Assembly (NCBI GenBank): GCA_011051655.1
Contig: DRKS01000046.1
Coordinates: 1 to 60,489 of the forward strand
DNA length: 60,489 nt
Reading direction: 5' to 3'
Origin: Sedimenticola sp.
GTDB lineage: Bacteria > Pseudomonadota > Gammaproteobacteria > Chromatiales > Chromatiaceae
Part shown: one piece after another, positions 2 through 6,620 of the stretch
How the letters are laid out: each line of letters opens with the position of its first letter
Numbering within the stretch: position 1 is the first letter of the stretch
The notes under the pieces: model-generated
What the model was told of the DNA's origin: nothing
The model's database searches: none
Seen by the model: the letters and a program-made list of their open reading frames with translations, nothing else
Program-made: the position numbers and the translations under genes

Positions 2-3000
2 ACCGGCAACACCAGCGACACCTTCACCGTGGAAGGCCCGGTGGACCTGGACTGGGTCAAGCCCGGCAACCGCTTCGCCGTCATCTACGGCAAACTCATC
101 CGGGCCGAGATCAACACCCCCAACAGCGGCCGCAAGCCGGTGAAGCTGTTCCGTCCGGTGGGGCCGAACTCTCTGGTGGACGGGGACGATGTCTACGACG
201 GCCCCTGCGAGGTCTGCCATACCAAGACCCGCCACCATCGCAACAACGACGACAACCCGGAGCAGGCGGACCACCGCCACAACGTGGGCATGCAGTGCAC
301 CTTCTGCCACAAGCACGTCAACGGCTTCAAGCCGCTGGGCGCCGGGGCGCACGCCATCCACGTGGTCGAGGAGTACGGCCCCAAGATCACCTGCGCCCAG
401 GGCCAATGGGGCTGCCACGGCAGCTATGACCCCGGTTCCAACTATCCCAACGAGGTCTACTTCGCCGACGGCGAGGTCCTCTGTGACGGCCGTGTCGGGG
501 TCCTTCCGCGCACCAGCGCCGGCCCGCCCTGCCCCAACACCGGCCCCGATACCGGCACCCGGGTCTGCGCCAACTGCCACGGCGAGGGCGCGGTGCTGGC
601 CAAGTACTATTTCTTTCGCCCAGGTTCCTCGGAGGGCGGCGGCGCCATCTGGGTCACGCCCCAGAGCGGCGAATATACCTGGGCGGACACCTGGTTGGGT
701 GAGCTGGGGGAGGCCAGGTTCTGCGGCAGTTGCCACAACGACAGCCCCAACCCCCCGCCGGTGGCCGGTCCCAAACATCCGACCGACAAGAACCCGCCCA
801 ACGTAGTGGGCGATCTGGATCTGCAGACCGGTGCCAACAGCTACGGCTTCTTCGTCAACGGCCACGGCAAGAGCAGCGCGGAGAACTACGAACGGCTTTC
901 CTGGCAGGACAGCTCCGCCAGCGGCAACCCCGGGGCCGGCCGCATCTGCAGCGACTGCCACGAATACACCAAGACCCACTGGAACAACCCGGATCCGAAC
1001 AAGAAGCGCCTCAAGGACGGCTACGACAACGACGCCGACAACACCGTCTGCCGCAAGTGCCACAACAACGAGGGCGGTCCGGTCTGGGCCAACAATGGCC
1101 CCGAGTGGTACCGCTCGGACGACTATGCCAACTTCCGCAACTCGGCCCACGGCCCCGGCATCCCGGGAGACAAGGGAAATCTCCGCTGCACCATGTGCCA
1201 CGACCCCCACGGCGTGGTCAAGCAGGACCTGGCCGGAAACGGCGCCCTCAACCCCGCCATGACCAAGGGTTATCAGCAGGAGCTGTGCTTCCGCTGTCAC
1301 AGCGACAACGGTGATCTCATGCAGGTCAAGAACGACCAGATCTCCAACAACAGGCCCGGCGGCCACGTCTCGGCGGACGACATCGAGGAGGCCTTCACGC
1401 TGGCGGACGGCCATGACCTGGGGACCCCCTTCACCAACGGCGGCAAGAACTACACCCTGGAGTGCGTCTCCTGCCACAACGTGCACGTGGTGACGGGCAA
1501 GTACTGGGATGCGGAGCAGAACCTGAGCCCCGTGGCCCTGCCCCTGGGGGGCTTCGAGGTCTGGGGCGACGATCCCGAGGAGAAGATGGACTACTATGCC
1601 CGCACCGGCGGCTCGGGCACGGGCGGCTTCTACTGGCAGATCGCCAACGGCAAGCAACTGGGCGACACCGCCATGATCTGGAACTGGGGCGGCATGTACC
1701 AGCCGCCCAAGAGCGGCGGCGGCCTGAACTTCGAGTTCGGCGGTGATGTGCTGCCGGCCTATCCCAAGTTCTGCCTCACCTGTCATTCCGAGCGGGTCAG
1801 TCCCGCCAATCCACCCGTCAACTGGGGCCAGGGCATCGGCTGCACGGACAACACCGTCGACCCCCCCAACCAGCGCATCGAATGCGGGGCGCGTCACGGC
1901 TTCGGCATAGCGGGCACCCCCTTCAACAAGAACGAGGACAACCCGGCCACCTCGGGCTTCTGGGGCAGCAGCGGCAACCCCGACGCCATCTTCAACATGA
2001 ATTTCGTCACCCGCGGCCGCGGCGGCGGGCACTTCATGCGCTGGCCCTATGACTCCGCCAGCCGCAATGCCGGGGCCAACTTCGTGCTCTCCTGCACGGA
2101 CTGCCACGAGGCCCACCGCTCCCGCAAGAGCTCGATGATCCGCGAGCGCTGGCAGGTCACCGCCGCCGGCGACTGCGGCAGCGGCGGCGACGGCACCCCC
2201 GAGACCGCCGGTGAAAATTGTGGGGCGGACGGGGGCAACTGGCGCGAATTCTGCAATTCGTGTCACTACTTTTATGGCGGACACCACGGCGACTGCGGCT
2301 GGCAGGGCGGCCAACCCTGCGCCTGCGGCAACGCGAGCTGCCACGAGGTGAACTCCATCCACCGGATCATCCACAGCGGGGCGGACAGCGGCAGCGGCAC
2401 GCGCCTGGAGATCACCTCCATGAAGACCGATCCCAACGACGGCATCCCCTACCGGGAGGATTTCGAACCGCCCAGCTTCACCCCCGAGATCAAGCGGGTG
2501 GACGCCACGGTGGGCAGCAATCAACTGACGGTGTTCTTCCGCTCCAGCCAGCATGGCGCCGAGGGAAGGCGCGGCGTCTATGGCTCGGTGGACGTGACCG
2601 ACCTGACGGTGGACAGCCTCTCCGGCGCCCTGGAGCCGGAGGACTTCTGGCTCATTGACAAGAACAACGACAACCCCCGCACCATCACGGCCGTCAGCCA
2701 CAGTCCGGGGATGACGACCGCGGTCCTGACCATGAGCGCGCCCTTGACGGCGGCGGATCTCAACACCGACACCCTGTCGGCCCGGCCCACCTCCATCTGG
2801 GGCTGGTACGAAGGGGGCTACAACAACTACGCCACCGGGGTCATGGGCCCGCAGGTGGTCTCGGCCGGTCCCTGGCCGGTGGCGCTGACCGGTGACTGTC
2901 CCAACGGCAAGACCGTCTTCAACTTCGGTGAGCCCGCCGGCAGCGCCAGCGTCACGGACGACCAGGGCATCATGCAGGGTGTGGTCAACAACCCCGCGGT

Positions 3001-3796
3001 GGCCATCCCGGGAGACGGGCTCTACCATGGCGACAAGCTGCAAGGCACCGCCATCGACTTCGACAACAACCTGTCCTGCCTGGTCTCGCCGGCCGCCTTC
3101 ACCATGGAGGCCAGGGTCAAATTCAACAGCGTGGATATCGACTATGCCGACGACGGCAATGGCGGCGACCTGAACCCGGACGTGACCACCACCCAGCAGC
3201 GGATATTCGAGCGGCGCAGGACGGTGCAGTTCACGGTGATGCGGGGCGATTGGATGGGCGACAACGTGCCCGCCAGGGCGGGCAAGGCGCGTGCCAAGAT
3301 CCGGTACCGGGTCGACGCCAAACACGCCTGTCCCGACCTGGTCAATTTCCCGAACGATCCGGATTCAACAGAGGATAAGCTCTGGAGCGAGGTCTTCACC
3401 GATATCGACCGCTGGCCCATCGTGGCCAACCACTGGTACCGGATCAAATTTGTCTTCAACTCGATGAAAACGCCGGGGGATCAGGGCATAGCGCCCGTCG
3501 ATATCTGGCTGGACGACCAGGGGCCGGAAGGGGATGACGCGGGAGAGGCCTGGGCCGGTTACGTCAATGCCACGGTCTACCGGGTTTCCGATTACAACAG
3601 CTGCGCCTGGGGACCGCTGGGCGGCGACTTTGGCACGGAGGCGGACGAGAATGCGGCCATTGGCGACAACCTCAAGCATATGGATCAGGGGGTCAGTGAC
3701 GTGCAGATGCTGGACGGCCTGATAGACTGGCTGAGCTGGAGCCCGGATGCGGACTACAGCGGTGTTGACGATCCGGCCCACTTGGCTGTGCCTTAA
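2..3796 (+). CDS. Large multiheme c-type cytochrome with LamG-like C-terminus (5' partial)
   Basis: The reading frame is open to the window edge, so the N-terminus and any signal peptide lie upstream; 1264 residues are visible. Between about nt 206 and 2345 there are twelve canonical CxxCH heme-binding motifs (CEVCH, CTFCH, CANCH, CGSCH, CSDCH, CRKCH, CTMCH, CFRCH, CVSCH, CLTCH, CTDCH, CNSCH). There is also a wider CGNASCH (CX4CH) and a possible CX6CH (CAQGQWGCH). From about nt 2480 a heme-free region follows: a beta-rich Ig-like stretch, then a segment resembling LamG/concanavalin-type lectin folds (FTMEARVKF). Such proteins are periplasmic, outer-membrane or extracellular electron carriers; the lectin-like tail suggests surface or substrate attachment, which is inference. 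No redox partner is visible. The stop codon lies within the target site of the element immediately downstream. Confidence 0.85.
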   Translation, partial: TGNTSDTFTVEGPVDLDWVKPGNRFAVIYGKLIRAEINTPNSGRKPVKLFRPVGPNSLVDGDDVYDGPCEVCHTKTRHHRNNDDNPEQADHRHNVGMQCTFCHKHVNGFKPLGAGAHAIHVVEEYGPKITCAQGQWGCHGSYDPGSNYPNEVYFADGEVLCDGRVGVLPRTSAGPPCPNTGPDTGTRVCANCHGEGAVLAKYYFFRPGSSEGGGAIWVTPQSGEYTWADTWLGELGEARFCGSCHNDSPNPPPVAGPKHPTDKNPPNVVGDLDLQTGANSYGFFVNGHGKSSAENYERLSWQDSSASGNPGAGRICSDCHEYTKTHWNNPDPNKKRLKDGYDNDADNTVCRKCHNNEGGPVWANNGPEWYRSDDYANFRNSAHGPGIPGDKGNLRCTMCHDPHGVVKQDLAGNGALNPAMTKGYQQELCFRCHSDNGDLMQVKNDQISNNRPGGHVSADDIEEAFTLADGHDLGTPFTNGGKNYTLECVSCHNVHVVTGKYWDAEQNLSPVALPLGGFEVWGDDPEEKMDYYARTGGSGTGGFYWQIANGKQLGDTAMIWNWGGMYQPPKSGGGLNFEFGGDVLPAYPKFCLTCHSERVSPANPPVNWGQGIGCTDNTVDPPNQRIECGARHGFGIAGTPFNKNEDNPATSGFWGSSGNPDAIFNMNFVTRGRGGGHFMRWPYDSASRNAGANFVLSCTDCHEAHRSRKSSMIRERWQVTAAGDCGSGGDGTPETAGENCGADGGNWREFCNSCHYFYGGHHGDCGWQGGQPCACGNASCHEVNSIHRIIHSGADSGSGTRLEITSMKTDPNDGIPYREDFEPPSFTPEIKRVDATVGSNQLTVFFRSSQHGAEGRRGVYGSVDVTDLTVDSLSGALEPEDFWLIDKNNDNPRTITAVSHSPGMTTAVLTMSAPLTAADLNTDTLSARPTSIWGWYEGGYNNYATGVMGPQVVSAGPWPVALTGDCPNGKTVFNFGEPAGSASVTDDQGIMQGVVNNPAVAIPGDGLYHGDKLQGTAIDFDNNLSCLVSPAAFTMEARVKFNSVDIDYADDGNGGDLNPDVTTTQQRIFERRRTVQFTVMRGDWMGDNVPARAGKARAKIRYRVDAKHACPDLVNFPNDPDSTEDKLWSEVFTDIDRWPIVANHWYRIKFVFNSMKTPGDQGIAPVDIWLDDQGPEGDDAGEAWAGYVNATVYRVSDYNSCAWGPLGGDFGTEADENAAIGDNLKHMDQGVSDVQMLDGLIDWLSWSPDADYSGVDDPAHLAVP

Positions 3797-3974: not shown

Positions 3975-4005
3975 TAAAAAACGGCCTCTCAACGAGGCCG
4001 TTTTT
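3975..4005 (-). terminator. Intrinsic terminator of rpoH, bidirectional
   Basis: ACGGCCTC and GAGGCCGT form a GC-rich stem around a five-base loop. A run of A lies on the left and a run of T on the right, so it can terminate transcription in both directions. It lies just after the rpoH stop on the minus strand and faces the end of the cytochrome gene and its downstream element. Confidence 0.85.
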
Positions 4006-4028
4006 GCAGGTATCGCGGCCGGCCGCCT

Positions 4029-4877
4029 TCAGGCGATGAGCTGGGCCTTGATCTTTTTCATGGCGTTTTTTTCGATCTGGCGGATGCGCTCGGCGGAGAC
4101 GCCGTAGCGCTTGGCCAGGTCATGCAGGGTGCTCTTTTCGTTCGACAGCCAGCGGGCCTGCAGGATCTCCTTGCTGCGTTCGTCCAGGTCCTCCAGCGCG
4201 GTGTAGAGCTGTTCCCGCTCGCTGGTCGCGTTGTCCGCCTGTTCCAGCCGGGTGGAGGGCTCCATGCGCATGTCCGGCAGGTAAGAGGCCGGCGCCACGG
4301 CGCGTTCGTCGTCACCGCTGTCCTGGGCGTCGAAGGCCATGTCCTGGCCGGCCAGGCGGGATTCCATCTCCAGCACGGTTTCGGGCTTGACCCCCAGGTC
4401 CCTGGCGACGCCCTCCACCTCTTCCCGCGAGAACCAGCCCAGGCGTTTCTTGGAGCTGCGCAGATTGAAGAACAGCTTGCGCTGGGCCTTGGTGGTGGCC
4501 ACCTTGACGATGCGCCAGTTGCGCAGGATGAATTCGTGGATTTCCGCCTTGATCCAATGGACGGCGAAGGAGACCAGGCGCACTTCGAGATCGGGGTTGA
4601 AGCGGCGCACGGCCTTCATCAGCCCCACGGTGCCTTCCTGGATCAGGTCCGGCAGGGCCAGGCCATAGCCGGAGTAGCCGCGGGCGACGCGTATGACAAA
4701 GCGGATGTGGGACAGCACCAGGGTGCGGGCCGCATCGAGATCGTTGTGATCCCGCAACCGCACGGCCAGGTCGCGTTCTTCCTCCGCGCTCAGCATGGGT
4801 AGCTGGTAGGCCGCGCTGATATAGGCGTCGATGCTGCCCGTGGGCAGGCTGGCCGGCATAGCGAGTTCTTTGCTCAT
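4029..4877 (-). CDS. rpoH: RNA polymerase heat-shock sigma factor sigma-32
   Basis: 282 residues, close to the 284 of E. coli RpoH. Sigma region 2 spans about residues 50-125 ([17 protein letters not shown], then the [18 protein letters not shown] segment). The RpoH-specific box QRKLFFNLR is at 132-140, and region 4 with its helix-turn-helix ([16 protein letters not shown]) is near the C-terminus. It directs RNA polymerase to chaperone and protease promoters; htpG in this window has a matching promoter. It is the last gene of ftsY-ftsE-ftsX-rpoH, the usual gammaproteobacterial order, but a 121-bp gap holds its own candidate promoter and a CIRCE-like operator. A strong terminator follows. Confidence 0.97.
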
Positions 4878-4949
4878 GCGTCTCCGTTATTCCTGTGGGT
4901 TGGTTGAAAATGTGTCAGCACTTCTGTGGCGTCATACGCCTTTTGTTCT

Positions 4950-4976
4950 TTAGCAGTCTACTACAGGGAGTGCTAA
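4950..4976. promoter_or_regulatory. CIRCE-like HrcA operator upstream of rpoH
   Basis: TTAGCAGTC, nine spacer bases and GAGTGCTAA match the CIRCE consensus (TTAGCACTC-N9-GAGTGCTAA) at 17 of 18 arm positions, with the exact spacer length. CIRCE is bound by the repressor HrcA. The site overlaps the candidate rpoH promoter between its -35 and -10 hexamers, as expected for repression. No hrcA gene is in this window, so function depends on HrcA being encoded elsewhere. Confidence 0.8.
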
Positions 4977-4982
4977 TTTCAA
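4955..4982 (-). promoter_or_regulatory. Candidate sigma-70 promoter of rpoH
   Basis: On the minus strand, TTGAAA (4977-4982) and TAGACT (4955-4960) are separated by 16 bases, a fair sigma-70 match about 80 bases upstream of the rpoH start. It is interleaved with the CIRCE-like operator. A GGAACTT sequence slightly upstream (4986-4992, minus) matches a sigma-E -35 element, but I see no good matching -10. Confidence 0.5.
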
Positions 4983-4998
4983 AAAAAGTTCCTTGGCG

Positions 4999-5949
4999 TC
5001 AGTCCGGTTCGATATCGCTCAAATGGCGGCTCACCGCGATCCAGGAGCCGAGCAGCCCCAGCAGGGCGCTGGCGGTCAGGAGTGCGCCCAGGGTGGGAAG
5101 GCCGATGGCGGAGAGGTCGAAGTCGCTGTGGTAGAGCCCGGCCAGGTGCTCCACCGGGCCATTGAGCAGCCACAGGGCCAGGCTGACCAGCAGCCAGGCC
5201 AGGATGCCGCCGGAGAGGCCGTACCACAGGCCGTTGTAGAGAAAGGGGCGGCGGATGAAGGCGTCGGTGCCGCCGATCAGTTTGGTGATTTCGATTTCGC
5301 TCCGGTGGTTCTGGATCTCCAGGCGGATGGTGTTACCCACGATGAGCAGCACCGCCAGGGCCAGCAGGGCGGCAATGACCAGAACGCCGCGGCGGGCGAT
5401 TTCGGTTATGGCGTGGAAGCGGCGCACCCACTGGAGGTCCAACTGGGTGAAATCGACCTCCGCCTGCCGGTTGAATCCCGCCATCAGGGTTTCCGCCGCC
5501 TCGGGGGTGCTGTATTCGGGCTCGGGTTCGATCACCAGCACCGTCGGCAGCGGATTCTCGTCCAGCGCATCCAGGGCCCCCTCGAAGCCGCTGAGGCGGC
5601 GGAACTCCGCCAGGGCCAGGTCGGGGGGGATGACCTGCACCTTGGCCAGCCTTGGATTTCTGCGCAATTTTGCAGCCAGTGTCTCCGCCTGTTTCTCACC
5701 GATCTCCTGCTTCAGAAAAAGCGAGAAGGTCGCCGCGCCCTCCCAGCCGCCGGCGAGCTGCTGGACGTGGTTCAGGGTGACGTGCAGGCCGGTGGGCAGG
5801 GCCAGGGCGATGCCGATGACGGCGGTGGTCATGAGTGTCGCCAGGGGGGCGCTGCAAAGCCGTCCAAGGCTGGCCAGGGCCACCTGGAGGTGACGCAGCG
5901 CCCAGGTGCTGGGATCCGATCCGCCCCGGTTTGTCCTGGCCGAACCCAT
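4999..5949 (-). CDS. ftsX: Cell-division protein FtsX, permease-like subunit
   Basis: 316 residues. A cytoplasmic N-terminus and first membrane helix (about residues 35-55) are followed by a periplasmic domain and three further hydrophobic segments in the C-terminal half (GVLVIAALLALAVLLIVGN, GLSGGILAWLLVSLALWLL, LGALLTASALLGLLGSW), the FtsX topology. With FtsE it forms the septal ABC-type complex that activates peptidoglycan hydrolysis during division. It begins two bases after the ftsE stop, indicating translational coupling. It is somewhat shorter than E. coli FtsX (352), mainly at the N-terminus. Confidence 0.95.
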   Translation of the reverse strand: MGSARTNRGGSDPSTWALRHLQVALASLGRLCSAPLATLMTTAVIGIALALPTGLHVTLNHVQQLAGGWEGAATFSLFLKQEIGEKQAETLAAKLRRNPRLAKVQVIPPDLALAEFRRLSGFEGALDALDENPLPTVLVIEPEPEYSTPEAAETLMAGFNRQAEVDFTQLDLQWVRRFHAITEIARRGVLVIAALLALAVLLIVGNTIRLEIQNHRSEIEITKLIGGTDAFIRRPFLYNGLWYGLSGGILAWLLVSLALWLLNGPVEHLAGLYHSDFDLSAIGLPTLGALLTASALLGLLGSWIAVSRHLSDIEPD

Positions 5950-5951
5950 CC

Positions 5952-6620
5952 CTATCCCGCCGCGCTGTCCCGCACCAGCCGGCCCCGGTTCAGGGTGAGG
6001 ATGCGTTGTCCCATGCGGGAGATGAGGTCCAGGTCATGGGTGGCGATGAGCAGGGTGACGCCGACCCGGTTGAACTGCATGAACAGGTCCATGATTTCCT
6101 GGGAGAGGGCCGGGTCCAGGTTGCCTGTGGGTTCGTCCGCCAGGACCACGGGGGGCTTGCTGACCACCGCCCGGGCGATGCCGACCCGTTGCTGCTCGCC
6201 GCCGGAGAGGGTGATGGGGCGGGCCTTTTCCTTGTTCAGCAGGCCGACCTTGTCCAACGCCGCCCGCACCCGGCGGCCGATTTCCTGGTGGCGCATGCCC
6301 GCCACCACCAGGGGCATGGCCACGTTGTCGAATACGGTGCGGTCGTGCAGCAGCCGGTGATCCTGGAAGATCATGCCCACCTCCCGCCGGTGATAGGGGA
6401 TATCGCGCCGTCCGATGCGCCCCAGGTTGCGCCCGTTCACCCGCACCTGGCCGCGGGTGCAGCGCTCCAGCAGGCCGATGAGCCGCAGCAGGGTGCTTTT
6501 GCCGGCCCCCGAATGGCCGGTCAGGAACACCAGCTCGCCGGGGGCGATGTGGAAGCTGGCGTTGCTCAGCCCCTCGTGGCCGCCGGGATAGCGCTTGGTG
6601 ACCTGTTCGAAGTGGATCAT
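5952..6620 (-). CDS. ftsE: Cell-division ATP-binding protein FtsE
   Basis: 222 residues, the family's normal length. Walker A GHSGAGKST (35-43), ABC signature LSGGEQ (138-143) and Walker B VVLADEP (158-164) are all intact, as is the D-loop TGNLD. It is the ATPase of the FtsEX complex at the divisome. It lies 39 bp after ftsY and is almost contiguous with ftsX, so the three probably share an operon. Confidence 0.97.
   Translation of the reverse strand: MIHFEQVTKRYPGGHEGLSNASFHIAPGELVFLTGHSGAGKSTLLRLIGLLERCTRGQVRVNGRNLGRIGRRDIPYHRREVGMIFQDHRLLHDRTVFDNVAMPLVVAGMRHQEIGRRVRAALDKVGLLNKEKARPITLSGGEQQRVGIARAVVSKPPVVLADEPTGNLDPALSQEIMDLFMQFNRVGVTLLIATHDLDLISRMGQRILTLNRGRLVRDSAAG

Follow-up and report, generated by a model that had tools for sequence, protein, structure and literature searches.

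The heat-shock sigma factor gene rpoH of Sedimenticola sp. is preceded by a CIRCE operator that, with a probability of roughly 80%, is a working HrcA site at which the bound repressor would block the rpoH promoter or promoters, creating a feed-forward loop with chaperone feedback. The analysis shows the sequence and position of the site, its conservation, the presence of hrcA and rpoE in the genome, and the co-occurrence of hrcA with CIRCE; binding, repression, sigma factor usage, and GroEL dependence in the source species are inferred.

CIRCE operator upstream of rpoH

The operator occupies positions 4950 to 4976 (no strand assigned) of the window, i.e., the whole 60,489-nucleotide stretch analyzed. 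On the plus strand it reads TTAGCAGTC-N9-GAGTGCTAA, with 1 mismatch in 18 arm positions compared with TTAGCACTC-N9-GAGTGCTAA, confirming the 17/18 arm match and exact 9-bp spacer described in the first-pass annotation. In the sense of rpoH, the left arm runs from 4976 to 4968 and the right arm from 4958 to 4950, and 72 bases separate the operator from the rpoH start codon. Nowhere else in the window is there a match with ≤3 mismatches, nor did any appear in 100 dinucleotide-shuffled versions of it. Chance as the origin of the site was ruled out by these shuffles, by the reversed-sequence control, and by the expected count (0.02 sites, assuming equal bases); the same operator is found at rpoH of relatives. 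A possible remnant half-site, AAGTGCTGA, at 4915 to 4923 on the minus strand (7/9 positions, 35 bp from the CIRCE right arm), is weak and could be a chance occurrence.

The downstream gene (4029 to 4877, minus strand) encodes a 282-amino-acid RpoH that scores above the cutoffs of NF005143 and TIGR02392 (402 bits for the latter; cutoff, 323). Upstream of rpoH on the same strand are ftsX (4999 to 5949, minus strand; TIGR00439), its immediate neighbor, ftsE, and ftsY, and the rpoH promoter region is the gap between ftsX and rpoH. A perfect 5-bp hairpin, GGCGTCATACGCC, is located in the rpoH leader at 4928 to 4940, between CIRCE and the start codon. It is the sole terminator-like hairpin and was rejected as a terminator, as the call is for the plus strand and rpoH is on the minus strand. 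An RNA element was likewise rejected, as both Rfam matches in positions 4001 to 6000 fell under their gathering scores. Elsewhere in the window, a 1,255-amino-acid protein (29 to 3796, plus strand) has many CXXCH motifs by eye and two family matches, both below cutoff; judged from its sequence, it is probably a multiheme cytochrome c.

The source genome is a 103-contig draft of approximately 96% completeness. It contains hrcA as an open frame (PF01628; E value, 2e-66), the absence of which would have counted against the operator, and rpoE (TIGR02939; 319 bits; cutoff, 236; E value, 2e-95). hrcA heads the cluster hrcA-grpE-dnaK-dnaJ-dapB; the names grpE, dnaK, dnaJ, dapB, and groES were read off open reading frame translations with no profile scan. 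Genome-wide, CIRCE with ≤3 mismatches occurs in four places: upstream of hrcA (0 mismatches), upstream of rpoH (1 mismatch), upstream of groES (2 mismatches), and inside a long open reading frame (C42; 3 mismatches), which is feoB-like by reading and where the match was taken as chance. The genome thus holds two further credible sites, before hrcA and groES, as the first-pass annotation had suggested looking for.

A proposed composite promoter in relatives

CIRCE sites upstream of rpoH are embedded in conserved flanks. In a profile of 104 sites aligned on CIRCE in rpoH sense, with truncated flanks left out, the arms were nearly invariant except for A/G at the third base, the spacer was variable, and three flanking blocks were apparent. 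The first is GGAACTT, which spans −16 to −10 relative to the first CIRCE base. The second, T, A/C, and A at positions 9 to 11, follows the final TC of the left arm to give TCTNA, which begins within the left arm and is spaced 16 bp from GGAACTT. The third, AAT at positions 27 to 29, completes TGCTAAAAT, giving an extended −10 made out of the right arm. The sigma-E consensus has a −10 of TCTRA or TCAAA 16 bp after the −35. By sequence, GGAACTT-N16-TCTNA is built like a sigma-E promoter and TGCTAAAAT like an extended −10, with CIRCE overlapping both.

The register of the sigma-E element is preferred. Among the 89 sites of the class sample, a GAACTT/GAACCT core has an offset of −15 in 49 and −16 in 10, with 0 to 5 occurrences at each other offset from −40 to 0. 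A core within 2 bp of register is present in 61 of 78 rpoE-positive genomes, the remaining 17 having none, versus 1 of 11 rpoE-negative genomes (P = 1.5e-5, uncorrected for kinship). rpoE matches under the curated cutoff were counted as rpoE negative; of these genomes, G147 bears CIRCE. At the same 89 sites, TAAAAT with ≤1 mismatch occurs in 77 and the final T of TGnTAnnnT in 78. Both features are rare at groES/hrcA sites: the core is in register at 71 of 104 rpoH sites versus 3 of 39 groES/hrcA sites, and TAAAAT (≤1 mismatch) is found at 91 of 104 versus 3 of 39, the control being drawn from the family of the window only and 3 of its 42 CIRCE loci being unassignable to groES or hrcA. Within the family, the core is in register at 8 and TAAAAT is present at 12 of 15 rpoH sites.

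The control loci have a different arrangement. CIRCE comes after a sigma-32-like CCCCTATTA at the 23 family groES sites, whereas at rpoH it overlaps sigma-E and sigma-70 elements; at many of the 16 family hrcA sites, it directly follows CCTAAATT or similar. In these loci (L242 to L281), HrcA and sigma-32 sites abut, and CCCCTATTA and CCTAAATT resemble sigma-32 −10 boxes in sequence.

A second CIRCE-like site (≤5 mismatches, ≤150 bp) accompanies the first at 9 of 124 loci with an rpoH CIRCE, compared with 1 for the control pattern; some organisms are counted in both of the sets that make up the 124. All nine second sites (L012, L017, L028, L034, L041, L046, L057, L058, and L194) lie 30 to 33 bp from the first, approximately three helical turns. 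The weaker of the two sites, the upstream one, is overlapped by the sigma-E promoter in L012 and L046.

Promoter elements in the window

The window has an exact sigma-E-type −35 box, GGAACTT, at 4986 to 4992 (minus strand), spanning −16 to −10 relative to the first CIRCE base and in the same register as in relatives. The corresponding −10 position (4965 to 4969, minus strand) reads TCCCT, in which TC closes the left arm; it has the right spacing, is weak, with three mismatches to the sigma-E −10, and ranks at approximately the 9th percentile against 103 other sites, the fit being better in many relatives. The whole sigma-E promoter has a shuffle P of 0.29. The position of the extended −10 (4947 to 4955, minus strand), occupied by TGCTAAAAT in relatives, is here TGCTAAAGA, also weak: it is the lowest of the 104 sites at positions 27 to 29 and does not match TGnTAnnnT, as the final T is missing (TAAAGA). 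Because these −10 elements are among the poorest of the 104 sites and the sigma-E promoter is at shuffle level, the strong elements in this genome are limited to CIRCE and the −35 box.

An alternative sigma-70 promoter, TTGAAA-N16-TAGACT (4955 to 4982, minus strand), matches at 9 of 12 positions (shuffle mean, 0.1) and, by sequence, may be the vegetative rpoH promoter in the source genome. This is probably the promoter, from 4982 to 4955 on the minus strand, meant in the first-pass annotation. CIRCE does not lie between its −35 and −10, as had been proposed, but starts right after TTGAAA (4977 to 4982) and covers the spacer and TAGACT (4955 to 4960); the end coordinate of 4982 originally given to the operator takes in TTGAAA, whereas CIRCE itself stops at 4976. 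CIRCE overlaps every candidate rpoH promoter found in the window.

Because CIRCE keeps a preferred register relative to both the sigma-E −35 and the TAAAAT −10, it is tied to transcription initiation, which argues against a role of HrcA on CIRCE as a roadblock to ftsEX read-through with little effect on the rpoH promoter. Read-through is possible, as ftsX is directly upstream on the same strand, but positions 4001 to 6000 also contain no Rfam match above its gathering score, and we consider such a roadblock highly improbable.

Conservation among relatives

CIRCE is found at every one of the 11 loci whose RpoH is ≥75% identical to that of the window; some identities derive from partial RpoH sequences. 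The family sample comprised 34 genomes, 30 with a readable rpoH upstream region and 4 without, and CIRCE with ≤3 mismatches is present at rpoH in 15 of the 30. Each of the 15 CIRCE-less genomes has an hrcA match (a fragment in G009), while two of the 15 with an rpoH CIRCE have none: G005, which is 69% complete, and G011, which is 98% complete. The expectation that the site would be conserved in related genomes therefore held for the nearest relatives (11/11) and for the hrcA-positive genomes of the class (84/91; see below), but the family itself is patchy (15/30).

Among named loci found by RpoH similarity and scored for CIRCE, 20 of 80 have CIRCE at rpoH, including Sedimenticola, tubeworm endosymbionts, Candidatus Thiodiazotropha, Thiohalobacter, Thiogranum, Methylomonas, and Candidatus Methylobacter oryzae. 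Loci in which it was not found include Pseudomonas, Legionella, Halomonas, Histophilus, Haemophilus, enteric genera, and purple sulfur genera. Named loci and coded genomes overlap, the same site being present in both sets in some cases.

The CIRCE-less family members that keep hrcA (L023, L031, L032, L039, and others) are purple sulfur genera, judging by the named loci. Several CIRCE-less members have a good, separate sigma-E promoter approximately 107 to 112 bp upstream, and 10 of the 15 have TGCTAG nearer rpoH, as read by eye.

It is very doubtful that CIRCE is a relic, drifting in the source genome and no longer of consequence: although it has one arm mismatch and weak −10 elements, and half of the family has no counterpart, the genome retains hrcA, two further CIRCE sites, and an arm match of 17 of 18 positions, the GAC variant of the right arm recurs in the hrcA-positive genomes G010, G140, G144, G149, G156, and G158, and all 11 nearest relatives by RpoH carry the site.

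Co-occurrence of hrcA and CIRCE across the class

The class sample consisted of 132 genomes, about one per family, of which 122 had an rpoH match and 98 had hrcA; in the other 10, no rpoH match passed the set limit, and a second rpoH copy in G065 was left out of every cross-table. CIRCE (≤3 mismatches, ≤500 bp upstream of rpoH) is present in 84 of 91 hrcA-positive genomes versus 5 of 31 hrcA-negative genomes. The regions separate into two groups: the best match in the 122 regions has 0 to 3 mismatches in 89, 4 in none, and 5 to 9 in 33, while all of these regions read backwards have 4 to 9. The seven hrcA-positive genomes lacking CIRCE at rpoH each have at least one other CIRCE match. In one hrcA-positive locus (L164, genome G132), an apparent CIRCE with an 8-bp spacer, CTGGCGCTC-N8-GAGTGCTAA, lies behind a good sigma-E promoter.

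Two of the hrcA-negative genomes with an rpoH CIRCE, G116 and G153, carry a further CIRCE at a different place, which makes it possible that hrcA is missing from the assembly. The rpoH site is the sole CIRCE in G049 and G146, and G100 has 3-mismatch matches only. Two further hrcA-negative genomes, G057 and G102, have a degenerate CIRCE at the same place upstream of rpoH, which from its sequence looks like decay.

A later check covered 18 in-class genomes outside the class sample, namely, those of a phylum sample of 100 that were given loci, with a weighting to well-sequenced groups; rpoH regions were scored before hrcA was searched for. CIRCE was present at rpoH in both hrcA-positive genomes (G241 and G253) versus none of 16 hrcA-negative genomes. 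G249 and G253 are species of one genus, of which G253 has both hrcA and CIRCE and G249 has neither. Over the class sample and the later check together, 5 of 47 hrcA-negative genomes keep CIRCE at rpoH. Outside the class, the five genomes given loci, out of 74 genomes of the phylum sample with an RpoH match, all have hrcA and no CIRCE at the rpoH examined, so the rule linking hrcA and CIRCE does not reach them.

The association of hrcA with CIRCE has a Fisher P of 2e-15, uncorrected for kinship. The RpoH tree used for kinship correction is weak and covers 76 of the 122 class genomes. Independent pairs on all of its branches gave no significant association (six in the same direction, one opposite, and five without difference; P = 0.125), and treekit gave one usable pair on supported branches. 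The link is strong by count and is not significant on independent pairs of this weak class-sample tree.

The rarity of CIRCE where hrcA is missing bears on a further explanation, i.e., that the arms persist chiefly as pieces of a promoter (TTAGCA as a −35 and TGCTAA as an extended −10), with HrcA binding secondary or lost. TGCTAG persists in 10 of the 15 CIRCE-less family members, so the right-arm part has promoter value of its own. However, CIRCE is kept in only 5 of the 47 hrcA-negative in-class genomes and is degenerate in G057 and G102. Moreover, conservation extends to nearly all of the 18 arm positions, the 9-bp spacing is exact, and the conserved CTC and GAG fit neither a −35 nor a sigma-70 −10. 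We give this explanation very little credence.

Proposed circuit

As a working HrcA operator, the site would act as follows. HrcA on CIRCE would stop RNA polymerase at the rpoH promoter or promoters. In many relatives, two promoters would be blocked: a sigma-E promoter, with the beginning of its −10 in the left arm, and a sigma-70 promoter whose extended −10 is formed by the right arm. HrcA would cover the sigma-E −10 and the sigma-70 region at once. In other bacteria, GroEL is established as keeping HrcA active. When chaperones are occupied, HrcA would be released, and rpoH would be transcribed by sigma-70 or, under envelope stress, by sigma-E. Sigma-32 would then drive groESL and hrcA-grpE-dnaK-dnaJ, which are also predicted to be direct targets of HrcA repression. 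Release of HrcA would therefore raise sigma-32 and simultaneously free the targets of sigma-32, and the resulting feed-forward loop would be closed by chaperone feedback on HrcA.

The first-pass annotation had placed rpoH under HrcA in a cascade. Control by HrcA is favored by the presence of hrcA and by conservation of the site in the nearest relatives and the class, with patchiness in the family pointing the other way; the cascade is replaced by a feed-forward loop, as HrcA sites are also found before groES and hrcA.

Relation to known systems and implications

CIRCE and HrcA at groESL and dnaK operons are of the Bacillus subtilis type. The operator and repressor family are the same in the window, where the target is instead a sigma factor gene. 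Geobacter sulfurreducens belongs to a different phylum in current taxonomy. HrcA control of its rpoH was predicted from a CIRCE at −51 whose arms match the consensus, and further CIRCE sites are described at hrcA-grpE-dnaKJ and groESL (PMC545781, Table 8 for the rpoH site, in the passages on these operators). The suggestion in the first-pass annotation that such control had been proposed previously is therefore right for this species. Predicted HrcA control of rpoH is common to this species and the window, but the passages of that paper on CIRCE concern one genome and describe no sigma-E or composite architecture. Agrobacterium tumefaciens resembles the system of the window in that HrcA and RpoH both control the groE operon (as cited in a passage of PMC11764788); the contrast at rpoH comes from the five other out-of-class genomes.

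In the ftsX-rpoH gap of Escherichia coli (L349, strain MB56), GAACTT-N16-TCTGA has the spacing of the sigma-E promoter in relatives; we take the sigma-E promoter of E. coli rpoH to be P3. Unlike the window, this gap has no CIRCE (best match, 8 mismatches), and E. coli, one of 14 control genomes, is not among the 7 with an HrcA match. Permina and Gelfand 2003 reportedly deals with heat-shock regulons of beta-, gamma-, and epsilonproteobacteria. Among the matches listed in a search whose scope excluded that study and RegPrecise, there was no report of gamma- or betaproteobacterial rpoH with HrcA/CIRCE; nor, among matches likewise excluding Permina and Gelfand 2003, was there one of a sigma-E/CIRCE composite promoter or its breadth.

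E. coli is the source of the textbook view of sigma-32 control, in which transcription of rpoH is held to be secondary to translation and protein stability. The presence of CIRCE within the rpoH promoter in most sampled related families that keep hrcA suggests that the arrangement known from E. coli has been reduced. We lean slightly toward the broader view that the GTDB class Gammaproteobacteria ancestrally controlled rpoH through a single composite element, with CIRCE nested in both a sigma-E promoter and an extended −10 sigma-70 promoter, in which one 46-bp stretch would join chaperone load (through HrcA), envelope stress (through sigma-E), and housekeeping transcription. HrcA would then stand atop the heat-shock network, and the E. 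coli type of wiring would be the remainder after loss of hrcA. In some lineages, a further CIRCE-like site lies at a distance of about three turns of DNA. If rpoH is under HrcA control in most hrcA-keeping families, the E. coli circuit would be derived and simplified, and models of the proteobacterial heat-shock response would need HrcA above sigma-32. The element also makes it possible to test directly how signals of cytoplasmic and of envelope stress are combined at one promoter.
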